From NCBI RefSeq assembly GCF_000737325.1, contig NZ_CP011125.1:5270001-5334000 (forward strand): DNA of 64,000 nt. Direction: 5' to 3'. Position 1 is the stretch's first letter. Each line of letters opens with the position of its first letter. Made by a program: the position numbers and the translations under genes. This DNA is from Sandaracinus amylolyticus. Lineage in GTDB: Bacteria > Myxococcota_A > Polyangia > Polyangiales > Sandaracinaceae. The notes beneath the pieces were generated by a model. It saw only the letters and a program-made list of their open reading frames with translations, did not search any database and was not told where the DNA came from. Below, piece after piece: positions 925-53,390 of this stretch.

Positions 925-3429
925 GTGCTCGGACGCCGCTGCTTCGCTCTCTTGCTCGCGCTCGCGACGCTGCTCCACCTCGGGTTCGAGTGGGAGGGGC
1001 GCGCGGCTCGGCTGCGGCGTGCGCTCGGGTCACCCGAGGCGGCGGAGCGCATCGAGGCGCTCCGCGCGCTCGCCCGGCTCCCCGGGGACGAGGTGCGCGA
1101 CGCGCTGCTCGGAGCGCTCGACGATCGCGAGCGCGAGGTCCGCGTCGAGGCGGTGCGCGCGGTCGGCGACGCGCGCGTCGTCGCGGCGGTGCCGCGGCTG
1201 ACCGAGTGGCTCGCGGATCCCGACGCCGATCTGCGCGCGGTCTCGGCCGAGGCGCTCGGCGCGATCGGCGATGCGAGCGCGGTGACCGCGCTGGTGCGCG
1301 CGCTCGGCGACGCACGCGCCGACGTGCGGCGCGCGGCGGTCGACGCGCTCGCGGCGATCGGCGGCGACGAGGCGATCGTCCCGCTGGTCGCGCGCCTCGA
1401 CGACGGCGATCCCGACGTGCGCATCGCCGCGGTGCATGCGCTCGTCGCGCTGCGCGACGGGCGGGCGATCGTGCCGCTGGTCGCCCGCGCCCGCGACGAC
1501 GCGCCCGAGGTCCGCGCCGCGGTCGCCTCCGCGCTGGGCGATCTCGGCGATCCGCGCGGGATCGCGCCGCTCGTGCAGGCGCTCGACGACACCAGCGCCG
1601 ACGTGCAGCTCGCTGCGATCGCGGCGCTCGCGCGCATCGGCGACGAAGACGCAGCGCACGCGCTCGCGCTGCGCGTGAGCGTGCCCGACGAGCGCATCGC
1701 GCGCGCGTCGACCGCCGCGCTCGGACGACTGCCCAGCGCGCGCGCCCGCACGACGCTCGTCGAGGCGCTCGCGCGCCCTGCCCTCGCGCCGATCGCCGCG
1801 GAGGCGCTGCGCCAGCGGGCGGCGCGCGGTGACGATCAGGTGGTGCCCGCGCTCGCCGAGGCGCTCGACGCGGCGGAAGCGCGATCGAGCGTGGACGCCC
1901 TCGCGCGCACGATGCTCGAGCTCGCGCCCGACGTGTCGCTCGCGCCCGCGGCCCCCGCCCTGACGCGCGCGCTCGAGGACGGCCGCGGCGACGCGGCGCG
2001 CGTGCTCGCGGCGCTCGGCGCGACCGGGAGCGACGACGCGCTGCTGCCGATCCTCGAGCGGCTCCGCGCGCCTGCGGCCGAGCTCCGGAGCGCGGCGATC
2101 GACGCGCTCGCCCGATGGACCACGCTCCGCGGCCCCGACGGGCGCGCCGCCGATCCGCTGCTCGAGGCGTTCGATCGCACGGCGCCCGCGGCCGAGCGCG
2201 CGTCGATCGCGCGGCTGCTCGGCGCGATCGGCGCACCGCGCGCGCTGCCATCGCTCCACCGTGCGCTCGAGGGCGACGACGCGGTCCGCCTCGCCGCGGT
2301 CGAGGCGATCGGCGCGATCGGCGCGCCCGAGGGCGCGTCGTCGCTGATCCCGCTGCTCGATGCGCCCGATGCGCGCGTGCGCCACGCCGCCGCGCGCGCG
2401 ATCGGCGCGTCCGCGAGCGACGACGTGATCGGCACGCTCGCGACGCGCGCGGTCGCGACGACGCCGGTCGATCGCCAGGCGCTGCTCGTGGCGATCGGCG
2501 CAGGAGCGCGGCGTCTTCGCGCGAACGATGCGCTCGGCGCGGCGTCCTCGGAGCACGTGCGCGCGACGCTCCTCGAGCTCGCGCGGTCGCCCGATCCGGA
2601 GCTCGCCTCGGCGGCGCTCGCGGCGATGCCCGCCGACGCCGCGCTCGAGCCCGCGCTGATCGCGATGCTCGAGGCCGCGGCGCCGGGCCGGCGCGCGCCG
2701 ATCGTCGCCGCGCTCGCGTCGATCGACGCGCCGGGCGCGCGACGCGCCGTGATCGAAGCGGCGCGACGCGACGACGCCGCCGGCCTCGTCGCGCTCTCGC
2801 GGCTGGGCGAGCACGGCGACGCGGCGAGCCTCGCGTGGCTCGCCGGCGAGACGCCCTCGATGGCGTGGCCGCGCTCCGCGGCCGCCTCGTTCGCGATCGC
2901 GCGCTTCGCGCGCCGGGGCGTGCTCACCCGCGAGCACGAAGCCGTGCCCTGCTCGCTCGCGCGCTCGCGCGATCCGTGGATCCGCGCGAACGCCGCGATC
3001 GCGCGCGCCGCGCTCGGCGCCGGTGCGTGCGCGGACGGCGCCGATCCCATCGCGTGGCTCGCGCCCGGGCACGCCGCGGTGGTGCGCGCCGCTGCCGCGC
3101 GCTGGGCCCACGCCGCCGCCGAGCGCGGCACGATCGACGCGGACCGCGCGCGCGAGGCGCTCGCTCGTTGCGCGCGCGATCCGATCCCCAGCACCGCGCG
3201 CGACGCCTGCCGCGCGCCTGCGCTGCCCGCCCCCGACGATCGCGCCGACGTGATCGCGTGGAGCGCCGACGGGCGCGACGTGCTGCGCCGCGCGACGCTC
3301 GCGCTCCGCCTCCCCGACGGCAGCGTGATGGTCACGCGCACCGACGACCTCGGACGCATCCAGCTCGACGGCGTGCCGCGCGGCGCGCTCGCCCTCGACC
3401 GTCCCGCCAGCCTGCCGCTCGAGCCCTGA
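925..3429 (+). CDS. Secreted or membrane-anchored HEAT-repeat protein
   Basis: An 834-residue protein starting at GTG 925, chosen because it places a hydrophobic segment (FALLLALATLLHLGF) at residues about 6-20, as a signal peptide or anchor. A GTG at 832 is in frame but would bury that segment. Almost all the rest is tandem PBS-lyase-type HEAT repeats of about 31 residues, with cores such as DVRRAAVDALAAIGG and DVRIAAVHALVAL. The last 65 or so residues leave the repeat pattern and look like a small beta domain (LPDGSVMVTRTDDLGRIQL). HEAT solenoids are binding scaffolds, not enzymes. It ends 2 bp before the TamA-like gene, which is followed after 1 bp by tamB, so the three form one operon and this protein probably serves envelope assembly on the periplasmic side. 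No close family function is recognised. Confidence 0.85.
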   Translation: MLGRRCFALLLALATLLHLGFEWEGRAARLRRALGSPEAAERIEALRALARLPGDEVRDALLGALDDREREVRVEAVRAVGDARVVAAVPRLTEWLADPDADLRAVSAEALGAIGDASAVTALVRALGDARADVRRAAVDALAAIGGDEAIVPLVARLDDGDPDVRIAAVHALVALRDGRAIVPLVARARDDAPEVRAAVASALGDLGDPRGIAPLVQALDDTSADVQLAAIAALARIGDEDAAHALALRVSVPDERIARASTAALGRLPSARARTTLVEALARPALAPIAAEALRQRAARGDDQVVPALAEALDAAEARSSVDALARTMLELAPDVSLAPAAPALTRALEDGRGDAARVLAALGATGSDDALLPILERLRAPAAELRSAAIDALARWTTLRGPDGRAADPLLEAFDRTAPAAERASIARLLGAIGAPRALPSLHRALEGDDAVRLAAVEAIGAIGAPEGASSLIPLLDAPDARVRHAAARAIGASASDDVIGTLATRAVATTPVDRQALLVAIGAGARRLRANDALGAASSEHVRATLLELARSPDPELASAALAAMPADAALEPALIAMLEAAAPGRRAPIVAALASIDAPGARRAVIEAARRDDAAGLVALSRLGEHGDAASLAWLAGETPSMAWPRSAAASFAIARFARRGVLTREHEAVPCSLARSRDPWIRANAAIARAALGAGACADGADPIAWLAPGHAAVVRAAAARWAHAAAERGTIDADRAREALARCARDPIPSTARDACRAPALPAPDDRADVIAWSADGRDVLRRATLALRLPDGSVMVTRTDDLGRIQLDGVPRGALALDRPASLPLEP

Positions 3430-3431
3430 CG

Positions 3432-6400
3432 ATGCGCGCCGCCCTGCAGCGATTCGCGCTCGGCCTCGCGCTGGCGCTCCTGGCCGCGGTCCCAGTCGCG
3501 CGCGCCGACTCGTCGGAGTGGAACCTCCACCTCGATCCCGCGTTCGCGACACCGGCGATCGGCTTGCTCGCGCCCGACGACGCGGGGCTGCGCGGCGCCG
3601 GCTTGTTCGTGTGGGGCGGCGTCGACTGGCAGCTCGCGCGCCCGTTCGCGCTCGAGCTGATCGTCGGCGGCGGGCACATGTGGTCCCTCGGGCCGCCGCG
3701 CTTGCTCCCCGACGGCACGGACGAGGAAATCCCCGGCGCGACGTTCGTGCACGGCGGCATCGGCGGCCGCCTCCGCCTCGTCGACGACGAGAGCGGGTAC
3801 CTCGACCAGTCGGGCGGCAGCGCCGCGGGCAGCCTCTGGATCTCGGCGCACGTCGGCGCGATGGCGTGGCACGGGCCCGAGCTCGCGATCGATCTCGCGC
3901 TCGGGTACGAGCTCTCGCTGGTGCGCCCCGTCTCCGCGGGCCTCTACGCGCGCGCGGTGCTCGGGCTCTTCGGCGAGGGCGCGCAGTCGGACGTCGATCT
4001 CCTCCTCACGCTGGGCGTGTCGCTCTCCTTCGAGGTCACGGTCGGCGTGATCCCGAACGGCCGCTACGGCGTCTCCGACGTGCACATCGAGGGCCTCGAG
4101 GATCTCGACGAAGCCGCGCTGCGCGCGTGCCTCGGGACGCGCGAGCGCGGCACGTTCGCGCTCGACATCGTGACGTCCTCCTCGCTGCAGTGCGGGCAGC
4201 CGCCCTTCGACGGCGATCGACTGCGCGTCGAGCTCTTCTCGTGGCCGTGGACCGACTGGCCCCTCTTCGACGCGAGCGTGTTCGAGCGCGACATGCTCCG
4301 CGTGCAGCGCTGGCTGCGCGCGCGCGGCTACTACGAGGGTCGCGTCGTCGCGAGCCGCGTCGAGCCCGTCGAGGCGCTCGGCGAGGGCGGCACCGTCGCG
4401 ACCCGCGAGCCCTCCTCGTGCGTCGCCGACGACACGCGCGGCTGCGAGGTGCGTGTCTCGATCACCGTCGACGAGGGCGAGCCCGTGCGCGTCGCGCGCG
4501 TGACGCTCCGCGGCGAGCGCGAGATCGAGGAGTCGCTGCGCCTGCGCCTGCGCGCCGCGCTCGAGCTGCGCCGCGACATGCCCTTCGACGAGGCGCTCTA
4601 CGAGCGCACCAAGCGCGCGATGGTGCGCGTGCTCGCGGACAGCGGATATCCCGACGCGCGCGTCGAGGGCGAGGTGAAGCTCAACACCGCGCGCCACGAG
4701 GCGTACCTGCTCTTCCGCATCGAGACCGGGCCGCGCGGCGTGCTCGGGCGCATCTGCGTGACGGGCTACGGCGAGCTGCCGCCCGGGCCGATCCTCGCGG
4801 CGACGTACCTCTCTCCCGGCGACGAGTTCCGGCTGAGCGAGATCGAGGAAGCGCAGCGCGCGATCTTCGCGCTCGGCACGATGGGCTCGGTCGAGATCCG
4901 CCACACGACGCTCGAGGCGATGGAGGAGGAGCGCGCCGAGGCCGAGCGCGCCGCCGAGGACCAAGCGAGGCCGCGCGACGATCAGCCGACCGGCGCCGCC
5001 GAGACCGCGCCGGCGCCGGCCCCCGAGCAGCCCGCCGAGGACGTCGCGCCGACGAGCGAGACGCCCGATCCGAACGCGCCCGCGTCCGAGGCCTCGCCCG
5101 AAGCGACCGACCCGCCGCCGCCCGACGAGCAGCCCGCCGACGACGCGCCCGACGCCGCGGTGATCTCCTCGGCCACCGAGGACACCGACACCGGCCTCAA
5201 CGCGTCGCCCGACACCGCGGTCTCGCCGCCCTCCACGCCGTACTGCACCGACGCGCCGACCTCGGTGCCCGACGGCGCGCGCGCGGTCGATCTCGAGATC
5301 CGCGTGTCCGCGGGCCGCCTCGAGCGCTTCGGTCTCGGCGTGGGCATCCAGGCCGGCGACACGCTCAGCTTCGGCAACCAGTCGCAGGGCGGCGTCACCA
5401 CCGTCAACCAGATCGCGCTGCAGCAGTGGGACATCCACCTCCTGCTCGTCGCGGAGTGGCGCAACCTCTTCGGCAACATGCTGCGGGTGCGCCTCGAGGA
5501 GCGCCCGCGGCTCATCTTCCCCGCGCAGTTTCCCGGCGTCACCAGCGACGCCGGCGAGGGCCCCACGCTCGGCAACCGCATCGGCGTGACCGTGCGCTGG
5601 CCCGCGTTCATCGAGGCCCGCACCGCGCTCTTCGCCGGGCTCACCCACGACTACGGCCCGATCCCGCTGTGGGGCTTCTTCCGGCACGAGCTCGACGGAC
5701 GCATCGGCCTCGAGCGCACGTTCTTCGACGGGCGCCTCTACGTCTCGAGCGCGATCCGCGGGAACCTCTTCGTGCCCGACGAGGGCCAGAACCTCCAGTA
5801 CGCGTCGCGCCGCGAGAGCACGCGCGTGCTCTTCCTCGAGCAGATCGCGACCCTCGATCTCCGCGACGATCCGCGCAATCCCTCGCTCGGCGCGTTCTTC
5901 TCGGTGGGCCTCCAGGAGGCGGGCTTCGGCGGCGTGTCGTCGTGGGACTACTTCCGCATCACCGCGGAGGGCCGCGGCTACGTCCCGCTCGGCCTCGGCA
6001 TCGTGCTCGCCGCGCGCTTCGCGGTCGGCGCGATGTTCATCGGCGACACGTACTTCCGGAACGACGGCGTCGACGACATCTACGACCTCGACGTGCTCGG
6101 GCCGCTCTCGCAGCAGCTCCAGGGCGGCGGCTCGATCTCGAACCGCGGCTTCCCGCCCGGTCTGCTCGGCGACGTGCGCCGCGACGAGATCAAGGTGCGC
6201 GGCACCTACGTGCCGGGCGGCCCGCAGGATCGTCCCATCATCATCTCCGGCGGCACGTACCGCTGGGAGGGCTCGCTCGAGCTGCGCTTCCCGATCACCA
6301 CCGAGCTCGGCCTCGTGCTCTTCACCGACGTCGGCAACGTCTCGCGCGACGCGTTCGACTTCATGGCGCTGAACCTCGCGTTCGGTCTCGGCATCCGATA

Positions 6401-11349: not shown

Positions 11350-11372
11350 ACAGCGAGAAGGCCTCGGCGTGA

Positions 11373-11559
11373 GGCGTGGGGTGGTGGGTCCGACGGCCTG
11401 AGTGCTCGCGGGCTGCCTCACGAACGCAGTGAGAGCGTCGGGCGTCGGTGGGCGCATCGCGGCGCGCGCTTCGCGCTCTGCCGCGATGCTGTCGTCACGC
11501 TGTGATCGGCCTCTGCGAGCCCCCGTCGCACGGGGCCGCCGGACCCACCACCCCACGCC
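11373..11559. repeat. Long inverted repeat enclosing nested hairpins
   Basis: The arms are 11373-11398 and 11534-11559, 26 bp each, complementary at 25 of 26 positions, separated by 135 bp. Inside lies a perfect 10-bp inverted repeat (11454-11463 with 11480-11489, GCATCGCGGC / GCCGCGATGC) and shorter ones such as CTCAC/GTGAG and TCAC/GTGA. The element begins 23 bp after the tamB stop. It could be a large terminator-like structure, a structured RNA, or a small palindromic mobile element; no flanking target duplication was evident. Confidence 0.7.
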
Positions 11560-11712
11560 CGGTACCGCGGTTCTGCCGCCTCGGCTTGTAGTGGTGGGAT
11601 GGCTCGCGTCTGGTCCGCGCTTCGCCGCGGCCCAGGCGCTCGCGATCCGGGCTCTGCTGCGCATTCGCCTCGATCAGACGGGCTCCGCTTCGCGTTCGCC
11701 ACGATCGGCGTC

Positions 11713-11804: not shown

Positions 11805-12185
11805 CACCACCGCGACGAGGCGGTCGCCGGCTGTCGAGACCATCGGTGGCCACCGCGGCGAGGCCGGTCGCGCGCTCCGAACCATTCGCGACCACCTCGG
11901 CGAGGCGGTCGCGAGCCTCCGAACCACTCGCGACCACCGCGACGAGGCGGTCGCCCATGGTCCAGACCATCGACGACCACCGCGACGAGGCGGTCGCCCG
12001 TGGTCTGGTGGCCCGAGACCGCCGCAACGAGGTGGTCGCCGGTGGTTGGGACCATCGCCGACCACCCCGACGCGCTGGTCGCTGGTGGTTGAGACCATCG
12101 CGCACCGCCTCGACGCGGCGTTCGCCGGTGGTCTGGTCGCCCTCAGCACCGCAACGAGGCGCTCCGGAGTGGTCCAGACCATCCA
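11805..12185. repeat. Degenerate tandem array, 42-bp period, about nine copies
   Basis: Successive units begin GACCACCGCGACGAGGCGGT or close variants, and the better-kept ones end in TGGTCNAGACCATCG. The repeat length averages 42 bp. Both halves are themselves imperfect inverted repeats (GACC...GGTC and ATGGTC..GACCAT), so each unit could fold into small hairpins. Units differ at many positions, so this is an old or fast-diverging array rather than a fresh expansion. No CRISPR-like spacers. Confidence 0.7.
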
Positions 12186-29200: not shown

Positions 29201-31103
<1,903 letters not shown>

Positions 31104-31168
31104 GAGGGCGGCGACCCTATCACGCGTTCAGCACCGAGCTCGAACGTCGACGCGCGAAATCGATGTCG

Positions 31169-31420
31169 GCGTCGCGGTCTCGAAGCGATCGACTTCGAAA
31201 TCGACCCGCGGGGTCGCTGACACCCAACGATCGATTCGAAAATCGACCTCCGGGGTCGCTGACACCCAACGATCGATTTCGAAATCGACCTCCGGGGTCG
31301 CTGACACCCAACGATCGATTTCGAAATCGATCTCGCGGGTCGGTGACGGTCGACGAGCGATTCGGAGAGCGACCTCCGGGGTCGCTGACACCCCACGATC
31401 GATTCCGGAATCGGTCTCGG
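31169..31420. repeat. Tandem array of six 42-bp units with a central palindrome
   Basis: Units start at 31169, 31211, 31253, 31295, 31337 and 31379, exactly 42 bp apart. The best ones read GGGTCGCTGACACCCAACGA then TCGATTTCGAAATCGA, a perfect 16-bp palindrome, then CCTCCG or TCTCGC. The first and fifth units are diverged but keep the palindrome in degraded form. Because 42 is a multiple of three, frames stay open on both strands and give 14-residue repeats, but no gene signals support translation. The array fills the gap between a lipoprotein and a histidine kinase that point away from and toward it. Confidence 0.85.
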
Positions 31421-31439
31421 CGTGCCCGAGACTCCGAGC

Positions 31440-33113
31440 TCACGCCGGCAGCGTGAAGTGGAACGTCGCGCCCTCGCCCGGACGGCCCTCGGCCCACACG
31501 CGGCCGCCGTGGCGCGTCACGATGCGGCGTACGTTCGCGAGGCCGATGCCCGTGCCCTCGAACTCCTCGGGCGCGTGCAGCCGCTGGAAGACGCCGAAGA
31601 GCTTGTCCACGTAGCGCATGTCGAACCCGACGCCGTCGTCCGCGACCCAGACGTGCACCACCCCGGTGCCGGCCTCGCCCTGCTCGCGCGCCGCGCCGAT
31701 CTCGATGTGCGCGACCTCGCGCGTGCGCGTGTACTTCACCGCGTTCGAGAGGAGGTTCTTCACCACCGAGCGGAGCAGCGTCGGGTCCGCGGTCACCGCC
31801 GGCAGCGCGCCGATGCGCCACTCGATGTTCCGCTCGCCGATCTCGGGCGCGAGATCGCTCCGCACCGCCGCGACGAGCTCCGCGAGATCGAGCTCGCGCA
31901 CGCTCAGCTGCGCGCGACCCATGCGGCTGAACGCGAGCAGCTCGTCGACGAGCCGGCCGCCCTGCTGCGCGGCGTCCGCGATCGTCTCGAGGTACTCGCG
32001 CGAGGTCGCGTCCAGCGCGCTGGCGCCGCGCCGCTTGAGCATGTCTGCGAAGCCGCTGATGTGGCGCAGCGGCGCGCGGAGATCGTGGCTGACCGAGTAG
32101 CTGAAGCTCTCGAGCTCGCGGTTCGCCTCGGCGAGCGCCTCGGTGCGCGCGGCGACGCGCTGCTCGAGGCGCTCGTTCATCTCGCGGATGATCGACTCCG
32201 CCTTCTTCTGCTCGGTGATGTCGTGGCCCTGCACGAAGATGCCCTCGACCTCGCCCGCGCGGTTTCGGATCGGCTGGTAGATGAAGTCGATGTAGCGATC
32301 CTCGCGCGCGCCGCCGAAGTCGAGCTCGACGCGAACGCTGCGACCGATCCACGGCCGACCATCGCGGTAGACGCCGTCGAGCAGCCCGATGAAGCCCTGC
32401 TCGACGACCTCGGGCAGCGCCTCCGCGACCGTGCGGCCGACGACGTCGCGACCGCCGACGAGCGAGCGGTACGCGTCGTTCGCCATGTCGAACACGTGCC
32501 GCTCTCCGCGGAGGAACGCCATGAAGCTCGGCGCCTGATCGAAGAGGTGGAGGAGTCGCCGGCGCTCGTCGTCGAGCAGCTGGTTCTCGTGCTCGACGCG
32601 GCGCGCGCGCGCGAGCACGCCCGCCTCGGCGACGCCCGAGTCGTCGCGGGCCGCGCTCGATCCCGCCGCGCCCTCGGCGCGCGCCGCGACCTCGCGCAGC
32701 CGGTGCAGCTCGGTGACGTCGACCGTGTGCTGCAGGACGTACGCGACCTGTCCGCGCGCGTCCTTCAGCGGCGTGTGGGTCGCGCTCCAGAAGCGCTGCT
32801 CGACGACGGGGCCGCTCGGCGTGAGCGTGGGCACGCGGTACGGCAGGAACGCGAGCACGTCGGTCTCACCGGTGCGCACGGCCTTCTCGAGCGAGCGACG
32901 CAGGCGCTGGCGGCTCGCGTCGTTCGGATCGTCGGGGACGTTCGGGAAGAGATCGAAGACGTACTTGCCGACGAGATCCTCGAGCCGGCTCGCGGTCTCG
33001 CGCAGGTACGCGTCGTTCGCGGCGACGTAACGGAGGTCGCGGTCGAGCACCATGTACGCGTTCGGCGAGAGACGGAACGCCTCCCCGTGGACGAAATCGA
33101 GCTCGGGCCTCAT
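31440..33113 (-). CDS. PAS-PAS sensor histidine kinase
   Basis: A 557-residue soluble hybrid-free kinase, no membrane span. PAS domain one spans about 12-135 (FRLSPNAYMVLDRDLRYVAANDAYL), PAS two about 180-305 (LFDQAPSFMAFLRG...GIFVQGHDITEQKKAE), then a coiled helix and the HisKA box SYSVSHDLRAPLRHISGF with the phospho-acceptor His near 350. The ATPase part has NLLSNAVKYT (N box), VADDGVGFD (G1) and GTGIGLANVRRIV (G2). It is the third gene of a minus-strand run: response regulator, receiver-PAS-kinase, this kinase, spaced 19-20 bp. The ligand or cofactor of the PAS domains is not evident; there is no GAF or bilin-type cysteine. Phosphotransfer to the single-domain regulator is likely. Confidence 0.93.
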   Translation of the reverse strand: MRPELDFVHGEAFRLSPNAYMVLDRDLRYVAANDAYLRETASRLEDLVGKYVFDLFPNVPDDPNDASRQRLRRSLEKAVRTGETDVLAFLPYRVPTLTPSGPVVEQRFWSATHTPLKDARGQVAYVLQHTVDVTELHRLREVAARAEGAAGSSAARDDSGVAEAGVLARARRVEHENQLLDDERRRLLHLFDQAPSFMAFLRGERHVFDMANDAYRSLVGGRDVVGRTVAEALPEVVEQGFIGLLDGVYRDGRPWIGRSVRVELDFGGAREDRYIDFIYQPIRNRAGEVEGIFVQGHDITEQKKAESIIREMNERLEQRVAARTEALAEANRELESFSYSVSHDLRAPLRHISGFADMLKRRGASALDATSREYLETIADAAQQGGRLVDELLAFSRMGRAQLSVRELDLAELVAAVRSDLAPEIGERNIEWRIGALPAVTADPTLLRSVVKNLLSNAVKYTRTREVAHIEIGAAREQGEAGTGVVHVWVADDGVGFDMRYVDKLFGVFQRLHAPEEFEGTGIGLANVRRIVTRHGGRVWAEGRPGEGATFHFTLPA

Positions 33114-33132
33114 GGCGTGACGCTCCTCCAGC

Positions 33133-34635
33133 TCACGAGCGCGCGGTCGGATCCGCGGGACGTCGCGGCAGACGCACGCAGAAGGTCGTGCCCTCGTCGG
33201 CGTTCGAGCGCACCGCGACGGTGCCGCCGTGGGCGCGCACGATGTTGTCGACGATGAAGAGCCCGAGCCCGATGCTGCGGTCGCGCCGATCGATCGGCGC
33301 GCTGCCGCGGGTCAGCGGCTCGAAGATGTGATCGAGCATCGAGGGCGGGATCGGCTCGCCGAGGTTGTGCACCTCGAGGACCGCCTCCGTCGCGTCGCCG
33401 CCGATGCGCACCGAGATCGGCGTGCCCGCCGGGGAGTACGCGATCGCGTTGCTGACGAGGTTTCCGAGCAGCTGCGCGATGCGATCGGGATCCCACTCGC
33501 CGTCGATCGGCTCCGCCGAGAGCTCGAGGCGGCGATCGGGGCGAGCGTGCTCGAGCTCCTCGAGGACGCCCGACGCGATCGCGCGGAGCTCCGCGCGACG
33601 CGGCGAGACCGGGAGCGCGCCGCGGAGCCGCACCTGCGTGAAGTCGAGCAGGTCGTGGATCATGCGGCTCGCACGCTCCGCGCTCGCGAGGATGCGCCGC
33701 ACGATGCGCGTCGCTCCCTCGGCGGCGTGATCGCCGCGCAGCAGCGCGTTCGCGCCGAGGAGGATCGCGTTCAGCGGGTTGCGCAGGTCGTGGCTCACGA
33801 TGCCGACGAGCTGCTGCTGGAACTCGATGCGCTGCGCGAGCTCGGTCTCCGCGCGCTTCTGCATCGTGACGTCGGTGACGAAGCCTTCGACGTGCCCGGG
33901 CTCGCCCGGCGCCTCGCTCGGCACGAGCACCGCCCGGGCCCACAGCCATCGCTCCGCGCCGTCGCGCCGGGTGATGCGATACGTCGTGGTGAAGGGCTCG
34001 CCGTCGACGTAGGCGTTGCGCGACTCCTCGCGCACGCGGCGCGCGTCGTCGGGGTGGACGATGTCGTCCCAGAGCATCGTCCCGCCGATCGCGAACGTCT
34101 CGGGCGGATAGCCGCTCAGCGCGAGGCACCCTTCGCTCGCGAAGTCGAAGCGCCACGGCCCGCCGCGCACGGTGCGGAACACCATGCCCGGCAGGTTCTG
34201 CATCAGCGTCGAGAGCGTGCGCTCGCGGTCACGGAGCTTCGCCTCGGCGGAGCGTCGATCCCGGCGCTCGCGCGCCTCCGCGAGCGCGCGCTCGACGCTC
34301 GGCCCGAGCCGCTCGAGCTGGTCCTTGAGCACGTAGTCGGTCGCGCCGCGCTTCAGCAGATCGATCGCGGCGTGCTCGCCGAGCGCGCCGGACACGAACA
34401 CGAACGGCACGTCGGGGCGCTCCGCCTGCGCGATGTGCAGCGCGTCCTCGCCGTCGAAGCCCGGCACGCGGTAGTCGCAGAGGATCGCGTCGTACGAGCT
34501 CGACCGGATCGCGCGGACGAACGCGTCGCGCGCGTCGACGCGGTCGCACTCGACGGCGAGGCCCGCCCGCGCGAGCGCCGCGATCACGAGCTCCGCGTCG
34601 AGGCGACTGTCTTCGAGGTGCAGCAGGCGGAGCAT
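33133..34635 (-). CDS. Hybrid receiver-PAS-histidine kinase
   Basis: A 500-residue protein with a receiver in front: RLLHLEDSRLDAELV, then ILCDYRVPGFDG with the phospho-acceptor Asp at about 55, VFVSGALGE and the conserved Lys in YVLKDQ. A PAS domain follows at about 145-265 (LPGMVFRTVRGGPWRFDFASEGCLALSGYPPE...VTDVTMQKRAE). The HisKA box is IVSHDLRNPLNAILLG, and the ATPase domain has NLVSNAIAYSP and GLGLFIVDNIVRAHGG. The N-terminal receiver suggests it takes phosphate or a signal from another kinase before phosphorylating its own target. ATG 34635 is chosen because the receiver begins there. Confidence 0.93.
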   Translation of the reverse strand: MLRLLHLEDSRLDAELVIAALARAGLAVECDRVDARDAFVRAIRSSSYDAILCDYRVPGFDGEDALHIAQAERPDVPFVFVSGALGEHAAIDLLKRGATDYVLKDQLERLGPSVERALAEARERRDRRSAEAKLRDRERTLSTLMQNLPGMVFRTVRGGPWRFDFASEGCLALSGYPPETFAIGGTMLWDDIVHPDDARRVREESRNAYVDGEPFTTTYRITRRDGAERWLWARAVLVPSEAPGEPGHVEGFVTDVTMQKRAETELAQRIEFQQQLVGIVSHDLRNPLNAILLGANALLRGDHAAEGATRIVRRILASAERASRMIHDLLDFTQVRLRGALPVSPRRAELRAIASGVLEELEHARPDRRLELSAEPIDGEWDPDRIAQLLGNLVSNAIAYSPAGTPISVRIGGDATEAVLEVHNLGEPIPPSMLDHIFEPLTRGSAPIDRRDRSIGLGLFIVDNIVRAHGGTVAVRSNADEGTTFCVRLPRRPADPTARS

Positions 34636-34655
34636 CTCGATCGTCCCGCGGTGCG

Positions 34656-35117
34656 TCAGCGACCGTCCGCGTCGGGCTCGCGCGGCTCGGGCGGAGGCTG
34701 GTTGATCACGGCCCAGAACAGGCCGAGCTCGCGGAGCGCCGCGACGAATTCGGAGAAGCCGACGGGCTTCACCACGTACGCGTTCACGCCGAGCCCGTAC
34801 GAGCGCGCGAGGTCGCGCTCCTGGTTGCTGCTGGTGAGCATCACGATCGGGAGCGCCTTCATGGCGGGATCGCCCTTCACGCGCGCGAGCACCTCGAGAC
34901 CGTCGATCTTCGGCAGCTTCAGGTCGAGGAGCACGACGACCGGCAGCTCGGACGCACGGCTCGCGTGCGCCCCCTCGCAGTACAGGTAGTCGAGCGCTTC
35001 CTGGCCGTCCTTGACCCAGACGACCTCGTTCGCGAGCCCGACCTCCTCGAACGCCGCGAGCGTGAGCCGCGCGTCGTTGGGACTGTCCTCGACGAGCAGG
35101 AGCGATTTCAGCTTCAT
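34656..35117 (-). CDS. Single-domain response regulator (Rcp1-like)
   Basis: A 153-residue stand-alone receiver with no output domain. It opens KLKSLLLVEDSPNDARLTL, has the phospho-acceptor Asp in VVLLDLKLPKIDGLEVL, the Thr/Ser switch in IVMLTSSNQERD, and the Lys in AYVVKPVGFSEF. The insertion after the second strand (YLYCEGAHASRASELP) is typical of Rcp1-type regulators that serve phytochrome-like kinases. The start is ATG 35117, just before the first strand. As the first gene of the three-gene cluster it is the probable phosphate acceptor or shuttle for the two kinases behind it. Confidence 0.93.
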   Translation of the reverse strand: MKLKSLLLVEDSPNDARLTLAAFEEVGLANEVVWVKDGQEALDYLYCEGAHASRASELPVVVLLDLKLPKIDGLEVLARVKGDPAMKALPIVMLTSSNQERDLARSYGLGVNAYVVKPVGFSEFVAALRELGLFWAVINQPPPEPREPDADGR

Positions 35118-35250
35118 GGTGCGTTCGGTCCCACCCCCGCACGAGGGCATGGCCGGCGGCAACTAGTCGCGCCGGCGCGAGCTCGCAATGCCCGATCGTC
35201 ACGCGTGCTACGCTCGGCGCGGAATTCACGGGCGGGCGGGGGTCCGGGGC

Positions 35251-38522: not shown

Positions 38523-38632
38523 GTCCAAGCTCCTTCGAGCCGCGACGAGCGCGGCCCTACCTCGGACTTGGACGTCCCCCTCGTCGATCCGTCACCACGC
38601 GCCCGAGCGCGACGACATCGCGCGCGCGCAAC

Positions 38633-38688
38633 GACGAAGCGACAGCGACGAAGCGACAGCGACGAAGCGACAGCGACGAAGCGACAGC
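38633..38688. repeat. Four copies of a 14-bp tandem repeat
   Basis: GACGAAGCGACAGC is repeated four times without a mismatch (38633, 38647, 38661, 38675) and then breaks off. The repeat lies between the 3' end of tRNA-Pro and the upstream side of the lipoprotein gene. Perfect copies suggest recent slippage. Confidence 0.85.
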
Positions 38689-38746
38689 GACGGAAAGACG
38701 AAGGCCGCGAAGCATCTGCTCCGCGGCCTCTGTCTCCGACTTCGAC

Positions 38747-51826: not shown

Positions 51827-52376
51827 GCTGGGCGATCGCCGCGCGGGGTGAGGCTTCGATGAGAGGCGCGGGGAGGAAGCCCGTGCTCGGACAGTCCTCG
51901 CGATCCGACCGATAGCGCTCGTGACGGTCGATGGCCGGGGCTCTCGTGAGCGCGGGGCGCCTTCGGCGCTTCGCGCTCACGCGCAGTCGGGGGCCACGCG
52001 GAGACTGGATGGCGCTGCGGAACTGCGCGCGGGCCCCCTCCCCGCGCCCGCGAGTCGACCGTCGGTGGGTCGCACGCCCGCGCTGAGATGTGGTCTTCCT
52101 CCGACTCCTGCTCTCGTCAGAATCTCTCGATGCGCTGAGTCGACGAACGGCAGGCCTCATTCGCGCGCGGCGACGTGGTCTTCCTTCCACTCCTGCTCTC
52201 CTCAGAAATCTCCCTGATTGAGCGGAGTCGACGAACGGCACGCGTCATTCGCGCGCTCCGACGTGGTCTTCCTTCCACTCCTGCTCTCCTCAGAAATCTC
52301 CCTGATTGAGCTGAGTCGACGAACGGCACGCATCAGTCGCGCGCTCCGACGTGGTCTTCCTTCGATTCCTGCTCTC
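51827..52376. other. Gene-free stretch between the Cys-rich lipoprotein and the epimerase
   Basis: About 550 bp. The first 260 bp have no distinct signal. The rest is an 88-bp tandem repeat described separately. Short minus-strand frames inside the repeat begin MPFVDSAQSGRFLRR, but the repeat length is not a multiple of three, so the frame changes from copy to copy and translation is unlikely. Confidence 0.65.
52087..52375. repeat. Tandem repeat with 88-bp period, three copies and a fragment
   Basis: Copies begin with GAYGTGGTCTTCC at 52087, 52172, 52260 and 52348. The steps are 85, 88 and 88 bp; the second and third copies are nearly identical and the first is diverged. Each contains CTGCTCTCCTCAGAAATCTC and GAGTCGACGAACGGCACGC. 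The array stops at the 3' end of the epimerase gene, so the repeats are probably transcribed at the end of its mRNA, but on the strand opposite to the neighbouring lipoprotein. Confidence 0.85.
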
Positions 52377-53390
52377 CTAAGAGGCCGGCACGCTCGCCGT
52401 CGTCGTCGTGGAGCGCGCCTTCCTGCGCTCCGCGCGGAGCTCTTCGAGGCCGTCCTGGTACGTCACGATCGGCGCGTAGCCGAGCTCGTCGCGGGCCTTC
52501 TTCGTGCTCACCGTGACCGTGCTCGACATCATGTCGATCGCGAACCTCGTCATCGGGGGCGTGCTGCGCAGGCCGAGCGTGCGCCACACCGACTCGACGA
52601 CGCGCGCGAGCGGACGCGCGAGCGACGACGGCACGTTGCGCGTGCCCAGCTCCACACCCGCGGCGGCATCGGCGAGCTGCGAGAGGAAGTCGCGCATCGT
52701 GTGCGTCTCGGCGTCGGCCACGAAGTACGCGTTCCCTGGACGACCTCTCGTGAGCGCGAGCTCCAGCGCGTGCGCGATGTTGTGGACGTGCGTGGCCGAC
52801 GTCCGCACGCGGCCTCCGTCGAGCCACGCGAACCGACCGGTCTCCGCCATGCGCAGCACCGCCGGCAGCACCGTCGTGTCGCGCGTGCCCCACACGAGGC
52901 GCGGGCGGATCGAGAGCGTCTCGAACCCGGGCGCGCTCGCCGCGAGCACGCGGCGCTCGGCCTCGGCCTTCGTGACGCCGTAGAGGTACGGGCTCGACGT
53001 CGGGTACGGCGCGCGCTCGTCGACGTCGACGAGATCGCGCCCCGCGAAGATCGCCGCCTCGGTGCCGACGTGCACGAAGCGGCGCACGCCGGCGCGGCGA
53101 GCAGCCTCGAGCACGCGCGTCGTGCCGTCGACGTTCGCGCGCTCGAACTCGTCCTTCGTGCCCCACTCCTCCGCGCGCGCGGCCGCGTGGATCACCGCGT
53201 CGCACTCCGCGAGGTGCTCGGGGCGCACGTCGTCGAGATCACAGCGCACCGGCGTCGCGCCATAGCGACGAGCCAGCTCCGCGCTGCGATCCGAACGCGC
53301 CATCGCGCGCACGTCGTGGCCCTTCCGCACGAGGTGCTCGACCAGGTGACCGCCGACGAACCCCGAAGCTCCGGTGACGAAGACGCGCAT
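52377..53390 (-). CDS. NAD-dependent epimerase/dehydratase (extended SDR)
   Basis: A 337-residue extended short-chain dehydrogenase/reductase. The Rossmann motif VFVTGASGFVGGHLVEHL opens it, with CDLDDVRP and DAVIHAAA following. The catalytic Tyr and Lys are in SPYLYGVTKAEAERR (YxxxK), and the substrate pocket has LSIRPRLVWGTRD. Its relatives include sterol/nucleoside-sugar and cholesterol-dehydrogenase-like proteins, so the substrate cannot be set. The start is ATG 53390, the first residues of the Rossmann strand. It is divergent from a LysR regulator, a usual regulator-target pair. Confidence 0.88.
   Translation of the reverse strand: MRVFVTGASGFVGGHLVEHLVRKGHDVRAMARSDRSAELARRYGATPVRCDLDDVRPEHLAECDAVIHAAARAEEWGTKDEFERANVDGTTRVLEAARRAGVRRFVHVGTEAAIFAGRDLVDVDERAPYPTSSPYLYGVTKAEAERRVLAASAPGFETLSIRPRLVWGTRDTTVLPAVLRMAETGRFAWLDGGRVRTSATHVHNIAHALELALTRGRPGNAYFVADAETHTMRDFLSQLADAAAGVELGTRNVPSSLARPLARVVESVWRTLGLRSTPPMTRFAIDMMSSTVTVSTKKARDELGYAPIVTYQDGLEELRAERRKARSTTTTASVPAS

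Follow-up and report, generated by a model that had tools for sequence, protein, structure and literature searches.

We show that a 42-bp tandem array of Sandaracinus amylolyticus, located at positions 31186-31413 of the 64,000-nucleotide stretch analysed here (the window), belongs to a class of intergenic arrays with a near-constant period that recurs throughout the genome. The array is noncoding, its family is found at several sites, its dyads keep a constant spacing, and it is a member, with a repeat size of its own, of an enigmatic but described kind of bacterial repeat. A preliminary description made from the letters of the window alone was mostly right in what it observed; the significance of the array is different, and its membership of a genome-wide length class was not visible to that earlier reader. 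With regard to mechanism, we lean towards a helically phased function at the level of DNA.

Layout and genomic setting of the array

TRF placed the array at 31186-31413 with a period of 42 bp, 5.4 copies, 82% matches and a score of 286, without assigning it to a strand, and a repeat search returned a 126-nt repeat family in strict 42-nt register at the same place. The six dyads start at 31190, 31232, 31274, 31316, 31358 and 31400, each exactly 42 bp from the next, in agreement with the exact register described earlier. The 16-bp perfect palindrome that had been ascribed to every unit is present in two of them: TCGATTTCGAAATCGA occurs exactly only at 31273-31288 and 31315-31330, is found with one mismatch at 31189-31204 and, when up to two mismatches are allowed, has three places in the window versus none in 100 shuffles. 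The remaining three dyads, GATTCGAAAATC, GATTCGGAGAGC and GATTCCGGAATC, are imperfect. Read along the plus strand in the dyad alignment, unit 1 (31190-31231) carries the dyad GACTTCGAAATC, one mismatch from the perfect palindrome, and unit 2 (31232-31273) carries GATTCGAAAATC; the perfect palindromes belong to unit 3 (31274-31315) and unit 4 (31316-31357), the latter with a diverged second half. Unit 5 (31358-31399) joins the degenerate dyad GATTCGGAGAGC to an intact second half, and unit 6 (31400-31441) has the dyad GATTCCGGAATC and a strongly diverged tail, with the profile match reaching 31435. At the left edge, a degenerate half unit on the same strand (31155-31189) is marked by a two-unit profile match at 31155-31230 and a motif match at 31161. 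As noted before, the block is less GC-rich than its surroundings, with values of 0.62-0.63 over the array versus 0.70-0.74 in most neighbouring 250-bp windows (0.64 near the tRNA gene).

The genome is a single contig of 10,327,335 bases. Upstream of the array on the minus strand, an ORF at 31440-33113 encodes a PAS-domain sensor histidine kinase (Pfam PAS_4, HisKA and HATPase_c) whose stop codon is 27 bp from the array, and downstream of it a small ORF on the same strand (30714-31103), free of Pfam matches, is predicted to be lipoprotein-like from its leader sequence. A tRNA-Arg gene nearby is the sole Rfam match at gathering score in the stretch; at that score no Rfam family was found over the array or in six related loci, and we regard the sub-threshold miRNA names over the array as chance. 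Our codon-usage gene caller, trained on a sample of the genome, called no gene over the array. A protein-coding repeat of 14-residue units could draw on the several frames that are open across the array; it would, however, lie outside the called genes, and the 41-bp intervals of the array's family (10/33) break the frame. Since related arrays with 41-bp units shift the frame, the noncoding status of the array is supported, and we give a coding origin next to no credence, in line with the earlier judgement that no protein product was credible.

The window holds further repeats. An array of the 41-43 bp class with a period of 42-43 (11806-12183; TRF, no strand assigned) is unrelated in sequence to the array described above and is syntenic and 91% identical in the sister species G002. 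Shortly before it, at about 11360-11645, lies a dispersed repeat; G002 contains some 35 places similar to it. Another dispersed array family is represented by an 88-bp array at 52079-52382 of the window and an 81-bp array at 3239-3469 of stretch L071, distant sites which by eye have in common a stretch around GTGGTCTTCCTTC. Finally, a 14-bp perfect tandem repeat of 4.4 copies (38632-38692) adjoins a tRNA-Pro gene.

The family recurs in the genome and in a sister species

The preliminary description had proposed a genome-wide search for the unit. A two-unit query of the window array found three more arrays in the same genome, at 1.047, 2.308 and 4.830 Mb (the last is array C), which places the unit at no fewer than four loci, and two of the 96 genomes searched gave a match, S. 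amylolyticus itself and G002 of the same genus, with arrays at 2.236, 6.733 and 9.402 Mb. Across the seven arrays of the family in the two species, the dyads are 41 bp (10) or 42 bp (23) apart in all 33 intervals. Both the recurrence and the spacing are the opposite of what the preliminary description had named as evidence against itself, namely a unit found nowhere else and non-helical spacing in relatives.

A profile, R1, built from two units of the family, detected more distant arrays in S. amylolyticus and G002 and further ones in genomes G004 and G001. Most of these arrays have the dyad GATTYYRRAATC (GATT-YYRR-AATC) in common and are otherwise different, with other inverted repeats such as CGAATCTCSGAGATTCG or GAAGGGTCSGACCCTTC lying between, and a weak profile match at 9.161 Mb is without the GATT-YYRR-AATC dyad. 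A pattern scan of the genome collection returned 25 stretches, among which L084 (an uncultured Sandaracinus) and L091 belong to the group of the window array, and two 41-bp arrays of a delta-proteobacterial MAG (L102 and L104) have a different sequence; the remainder consist of AT-rich or coding stretches, inverted elements and other arrays. Four of the stretches (L095, L098, L097 and L083), from Bacteroidales, Cytophagales and Aminicenantes MAGs, hold 21-bp or 42-bp arrays with GATT..AATC-like dyads, and four others (L086, L092, L096 and L101) hold a repeated inverted element with CTAGTGTC-like ends from the alphaproteobacterial MAG UBA1303. A search for a phage or plasmid origin gave no match in the phage or plasmid collection.

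Comparison with G002 revealed both persistence and turnover. The window site corresponds by synteny to the 2.236-Mb site of G002, where the outer flanks are 92% identical and the array is kept, but other DNA takes the place of the kinase block and the small gene. The block (31440-35162) comprises two sensor kinases and a response regulator. Because it is absent at this site in G002 while the array is present, kinase and array are not tied, and we rejected a kinase-linked function. We also rejected arrival of the block by recombination between array copies, as a profile search of the window found no trace of the unit at the far end of the block. The 1.047-Mb site and the 6.733-Mb site of G002 are also syntenic, and by eye similar convergent gene ends flank the 3.609-Mb array and, in G002, the 3.870-Mb array. 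At the site of array C, 402 bp between matching flanks compare with 101 bp containing another short repeat in G002, both flanks being intact, and array L137 5580-5932 shows 390 bp versus 137 bp at the syntenic site; arrays are thus gained, lost or altered by unit turnover between the two species. The 2.308-Mb array sits at a synteny break. Its units are similar (mean identity 0.85) to the units of the 9.402-Mb array of G002, which is not syntenic with it, and this suggests spread between sites.

Arrays of 41-43 bp form a length class

To describe the tandem arrays of the genome, we sampled 60 stretches of 20 kb, approximately every 170 kb (1.2 Mb of 10.3 Mb), in addition to the window, called genes with our own codon-usage caller trained on the sample, and kept noncoding arrays that had a period of 20 or more, scored 110 or more and comprised no fewer than 2.8 copies. 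Sixteen of the 30 arrays have a period of 41-43, 14 of them in the sampled stretches, and among the 24 arrays with periods of 30-60 this concentration has a binomial p of 2e-11 for a range that was chosen after looking. None of the 16 overlaps a called gene. Their consensus units are largely unrelated in sequence, and profile R1 recognises only two of the 14 sampled arrays at E < 0.01. Extrapolating from these 14 arrays in 1.2 Mb, the genome would hold roughly 120. In G007, another genus of the same family, 400 kb contained seven arrays, one at 41 and one at 43, and in G056, from another family, none of the nine arrays in 291 kb has a period of 41-43. One array of G007 (L186 1457-1717) is a 41-bp array with two clear dyads.

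Among the sampled arrays, 7/15 lie between convergent genes (p=0.009) and 0/15 between divergent genes (p ~0.008). The array left out of this count as unplaced, L136, is array C and is divergent, and in the window family four of the seven arrays (A2, C, D and D2; gene calls read by eye) lie between divergent genes, so we set orientation bias aside as an argument. For the 21 arrays located with BLAST, with profile R1 or in the pattern scan, gene calls read by eye gave 9 convergent, 7 tandem and 5 divergent settings, counts that are not independent since three pairs among these arrays are orthologues.

Dyads and the core pattern

Relative to copies with permuted unit columns, inverted repeats are in excess (p < 0.05) in 9/16 arrays of the class, in 5/12 noncoding arrays of other periods and in 0/8 coding arrays (Fisher p=0.087 for the class versus the other 20). 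As noncoding arrays with other periods show the excess too, dyads do not clearly set the class apart. The two best dyads are separated by 19.5 bp or more in 7/16 arrays of the class (null 11%, p=0.0009, with a cut chosen after looking); a wholly symmetric repeat has its centres half a period apart by geometry, and this distance therefore reflects overall symmetry. The second dyad picked automatically in the window array falls 12.5 bp from the first rather than 21 bp. A weaker dyad near half a period, with GGGTC-GACCC arms, can be seen by eye in the sister arrays.

At the dyad centre, purine/pyrimidine identity is kept in 33/33 units at columns 5, 6, 8, 9 and 10 and in 30/33 at column 7, whereas at columns 6-9 the majority base accounts for only 52-67% of the 33 units. 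The units were initially picked with a motif favouring YY ahead of the centre, which biases the purine/pyrimidine result somewhat. In 106 motif matches, some of them off-register in GAATCTC arrays, the innermost core pair is Watson-Crick in 26 cases versus 43.5 expected under independent columns, and the next pair in 58 versus 47.4, slightly more than expected. The deficit at the innermost pair speaks against a pairing constraint there. On balance, the pattern is easier to reconcile with recognition of a flexible DNA centre than with a stem, although the strong single-strand folding of both strands, seen also under a control that keeps the repeat, weighs the other way.

Discussion

Noncoding tandem repeats of constant size and variable sequence have been described for many bacteria by Subirana and Messeguer, who suggest a nucleoid protein polymer or small RNAs and equate 20-21 nt with two helical turns (PMC8161180, available part). 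The arrays studied here resemble these repeats in having one shared length per genome, several families of unrelated sequence, a noncoding location and a restriction to close species; moreover, in both, short words recur with their reverse inside the repeat, and position and length are partly conserved between relatives (PMC8161180, same part). The sizes given there are 20-23 or 52 nt, whereas our class, at 41-42 bp, falls outside both and corresponds to two units of 20-21, with a second dyad near half a period in 7/16 arrays. The part of that text available to us treats Bacillus and names Cyanobacteria and Actinobacteria, without myxobacteria or Sandaracinus, and does not describe two dyads per unit or a YYRR core (PMC8161180). 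Like REP/BIME elements, the array is intergenic and palindromic, with several palindromes per cluster (partly PMC3733652, as far as available). It differs from them in its strict head-to-tail 42-bp register and in the few copies per genome of each family, and by eye its consensus lacks a GTAG or CGTC tag on both strands. The dispersed satellites of Leptospira interrogans likewise place one noncoding family at several sites; they are set apart by description only, no dyad or helical spacing being described in the accessible part of that source (PMC6749651). CRISPR arrays share the regular spacing and the short palindrome, and were rejected because the whole 42-bp unit repeats, leaving no spacers. 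With regard to centromere or replication iterons bound by a partition or initiator protein, the unit lies at no fewer than four loci of the genome. A 2020 survey in J. Bacteriol. reportedly gives 22/44 nt as one class and, if so, 41-42 would be closer to that than to the sizes of 20-23 or 52 nt. At the level of titles and abstracts, and among the matches listed, literature on myxobacteria, Sandaracinus or Myxococcota together with tandem or satellite repeats contained no such arrays.

We tentatively favour, at somewhat less than even confidence, the reading that the window block is an intergenic satellite of the constant-size, variable-sequence type held under DNA-level constraint by a putative dimeric protein on one face of the helix. 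Each unit, of about four helical turns (41-42 bp), has the conserved dyad GATT-YYRR-AATC, and its other half contains further, weaker inverted-repeat material. The spacing would be maintained at the DNA level, most simply by a dimeric DNA-binding, perhaps nucleoid, protein seated on the dyads along one face and tolerant of transitions in the flexible YYRR centre. Unequal exchange or slippage would alter the copy number, and units would spread to new intergenic sites. The spacing of 41 or 42 bp in 33/33 intervals, together with a kept pyrimidine/purine centre that shows no clear pairing, favours this constraint, and the functionally unrelated neighbouring genes argue for a general role rather than a regulon. 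Of the helically phased dimer already envisaged in the preliminary description, the phasing has thus gained support, and the protein stays putative. The absence of array C from its syntenic site in G002 counts against this reading, as do the presence of excess dyads outside the class and the 12.5-bp distance of the second dyad in the window array. In addition, the two units with the best palindromes are adjacent and hardly differ in that half, and copying could by itself account for the regularity.

Copying is the core of a serious alternative, which we consider possible though rather doubtful: a neutral or selfish satellite without any binding role, generated when slippage or template switching follows an inbuilt ruler of ~41-42 nt and tolerated between genes, in which regularity and dyads arise from copying and hairpin-prone seeds. 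It would accommodate the constant length of arrays with mostly unrelated sequences, their absence or replacement in G002 (array C and L137 5580-5932), the avoidance of called genes with a convergent excess in the sample, where insertion harms least, and a unit identity within arrays that equals or somewhat exceeds that between arrays. However, arrays A and D and the array at 11806-12183 have been kept at their sites through ~8% flank divergence, and neutral drift does not predict a dyad centre conserved as purine or pyrimidine with free transitions.

The earlier suggestion of mRNA-level structure after the kinase gene, in which an array transcribed from the kinase operon would form long hairpins that stabilise or terminate the message, appears unlikely to us. 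Its setting just past the kinase stop codon is suitable, and the folding is good: the minus-strand RNA has a folding energy of -124 kcal/mol (z -6.1), and with a unit-column permutation control that keeps the repeat, adopted in place of dinucleotide shuffles because these destroy the repeat and inflate z, the window array has a z of -5.0 and 24/34 arrays fall below -3. Folding is, however, strong on both strands, the much better-folding strand in D and D2 is antisense to the nearest gene, no terminator-like sites were found in 30600-32000, and the innermost core pair lacks co-variation. We regard as more improbable still a classical operator cluster controlling a neighbouring gene: the divergent settings of four family arrays and the end of the D2 array ~100 bp before a called start codon would suit it, but the flanking genes are unrelated (sensor kinase, MauG-like peroxidase and pseudouridine synthase), and at the window site the two species have kept the array next to different genes.

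Returning to the helically phased, DNA-level function, a bolder extension, which we put forward as speculation and on the whole doubt, is that about a hundred intergenic dyad 'tracks' at integral helical turns are bound by one lax dimeric protein, or by paralogues, forming same-face filaments, with length under selection and sequence drifting except for the YYRR centre in one group of arrays. If true, this dyad-track reading would explain the constant-length, variable-sequence repeats of many bacteria. The reason that some bacteria retain tandem repeats of a single length and unrelated sequence is an open question, for which the genome of S. amylolyticus offers a clear case. Moreover, a dyad common to otherwise differing arrays, and syntenic sites with and without an array, make protein binding, transcription and the effect of deletion directly testable.
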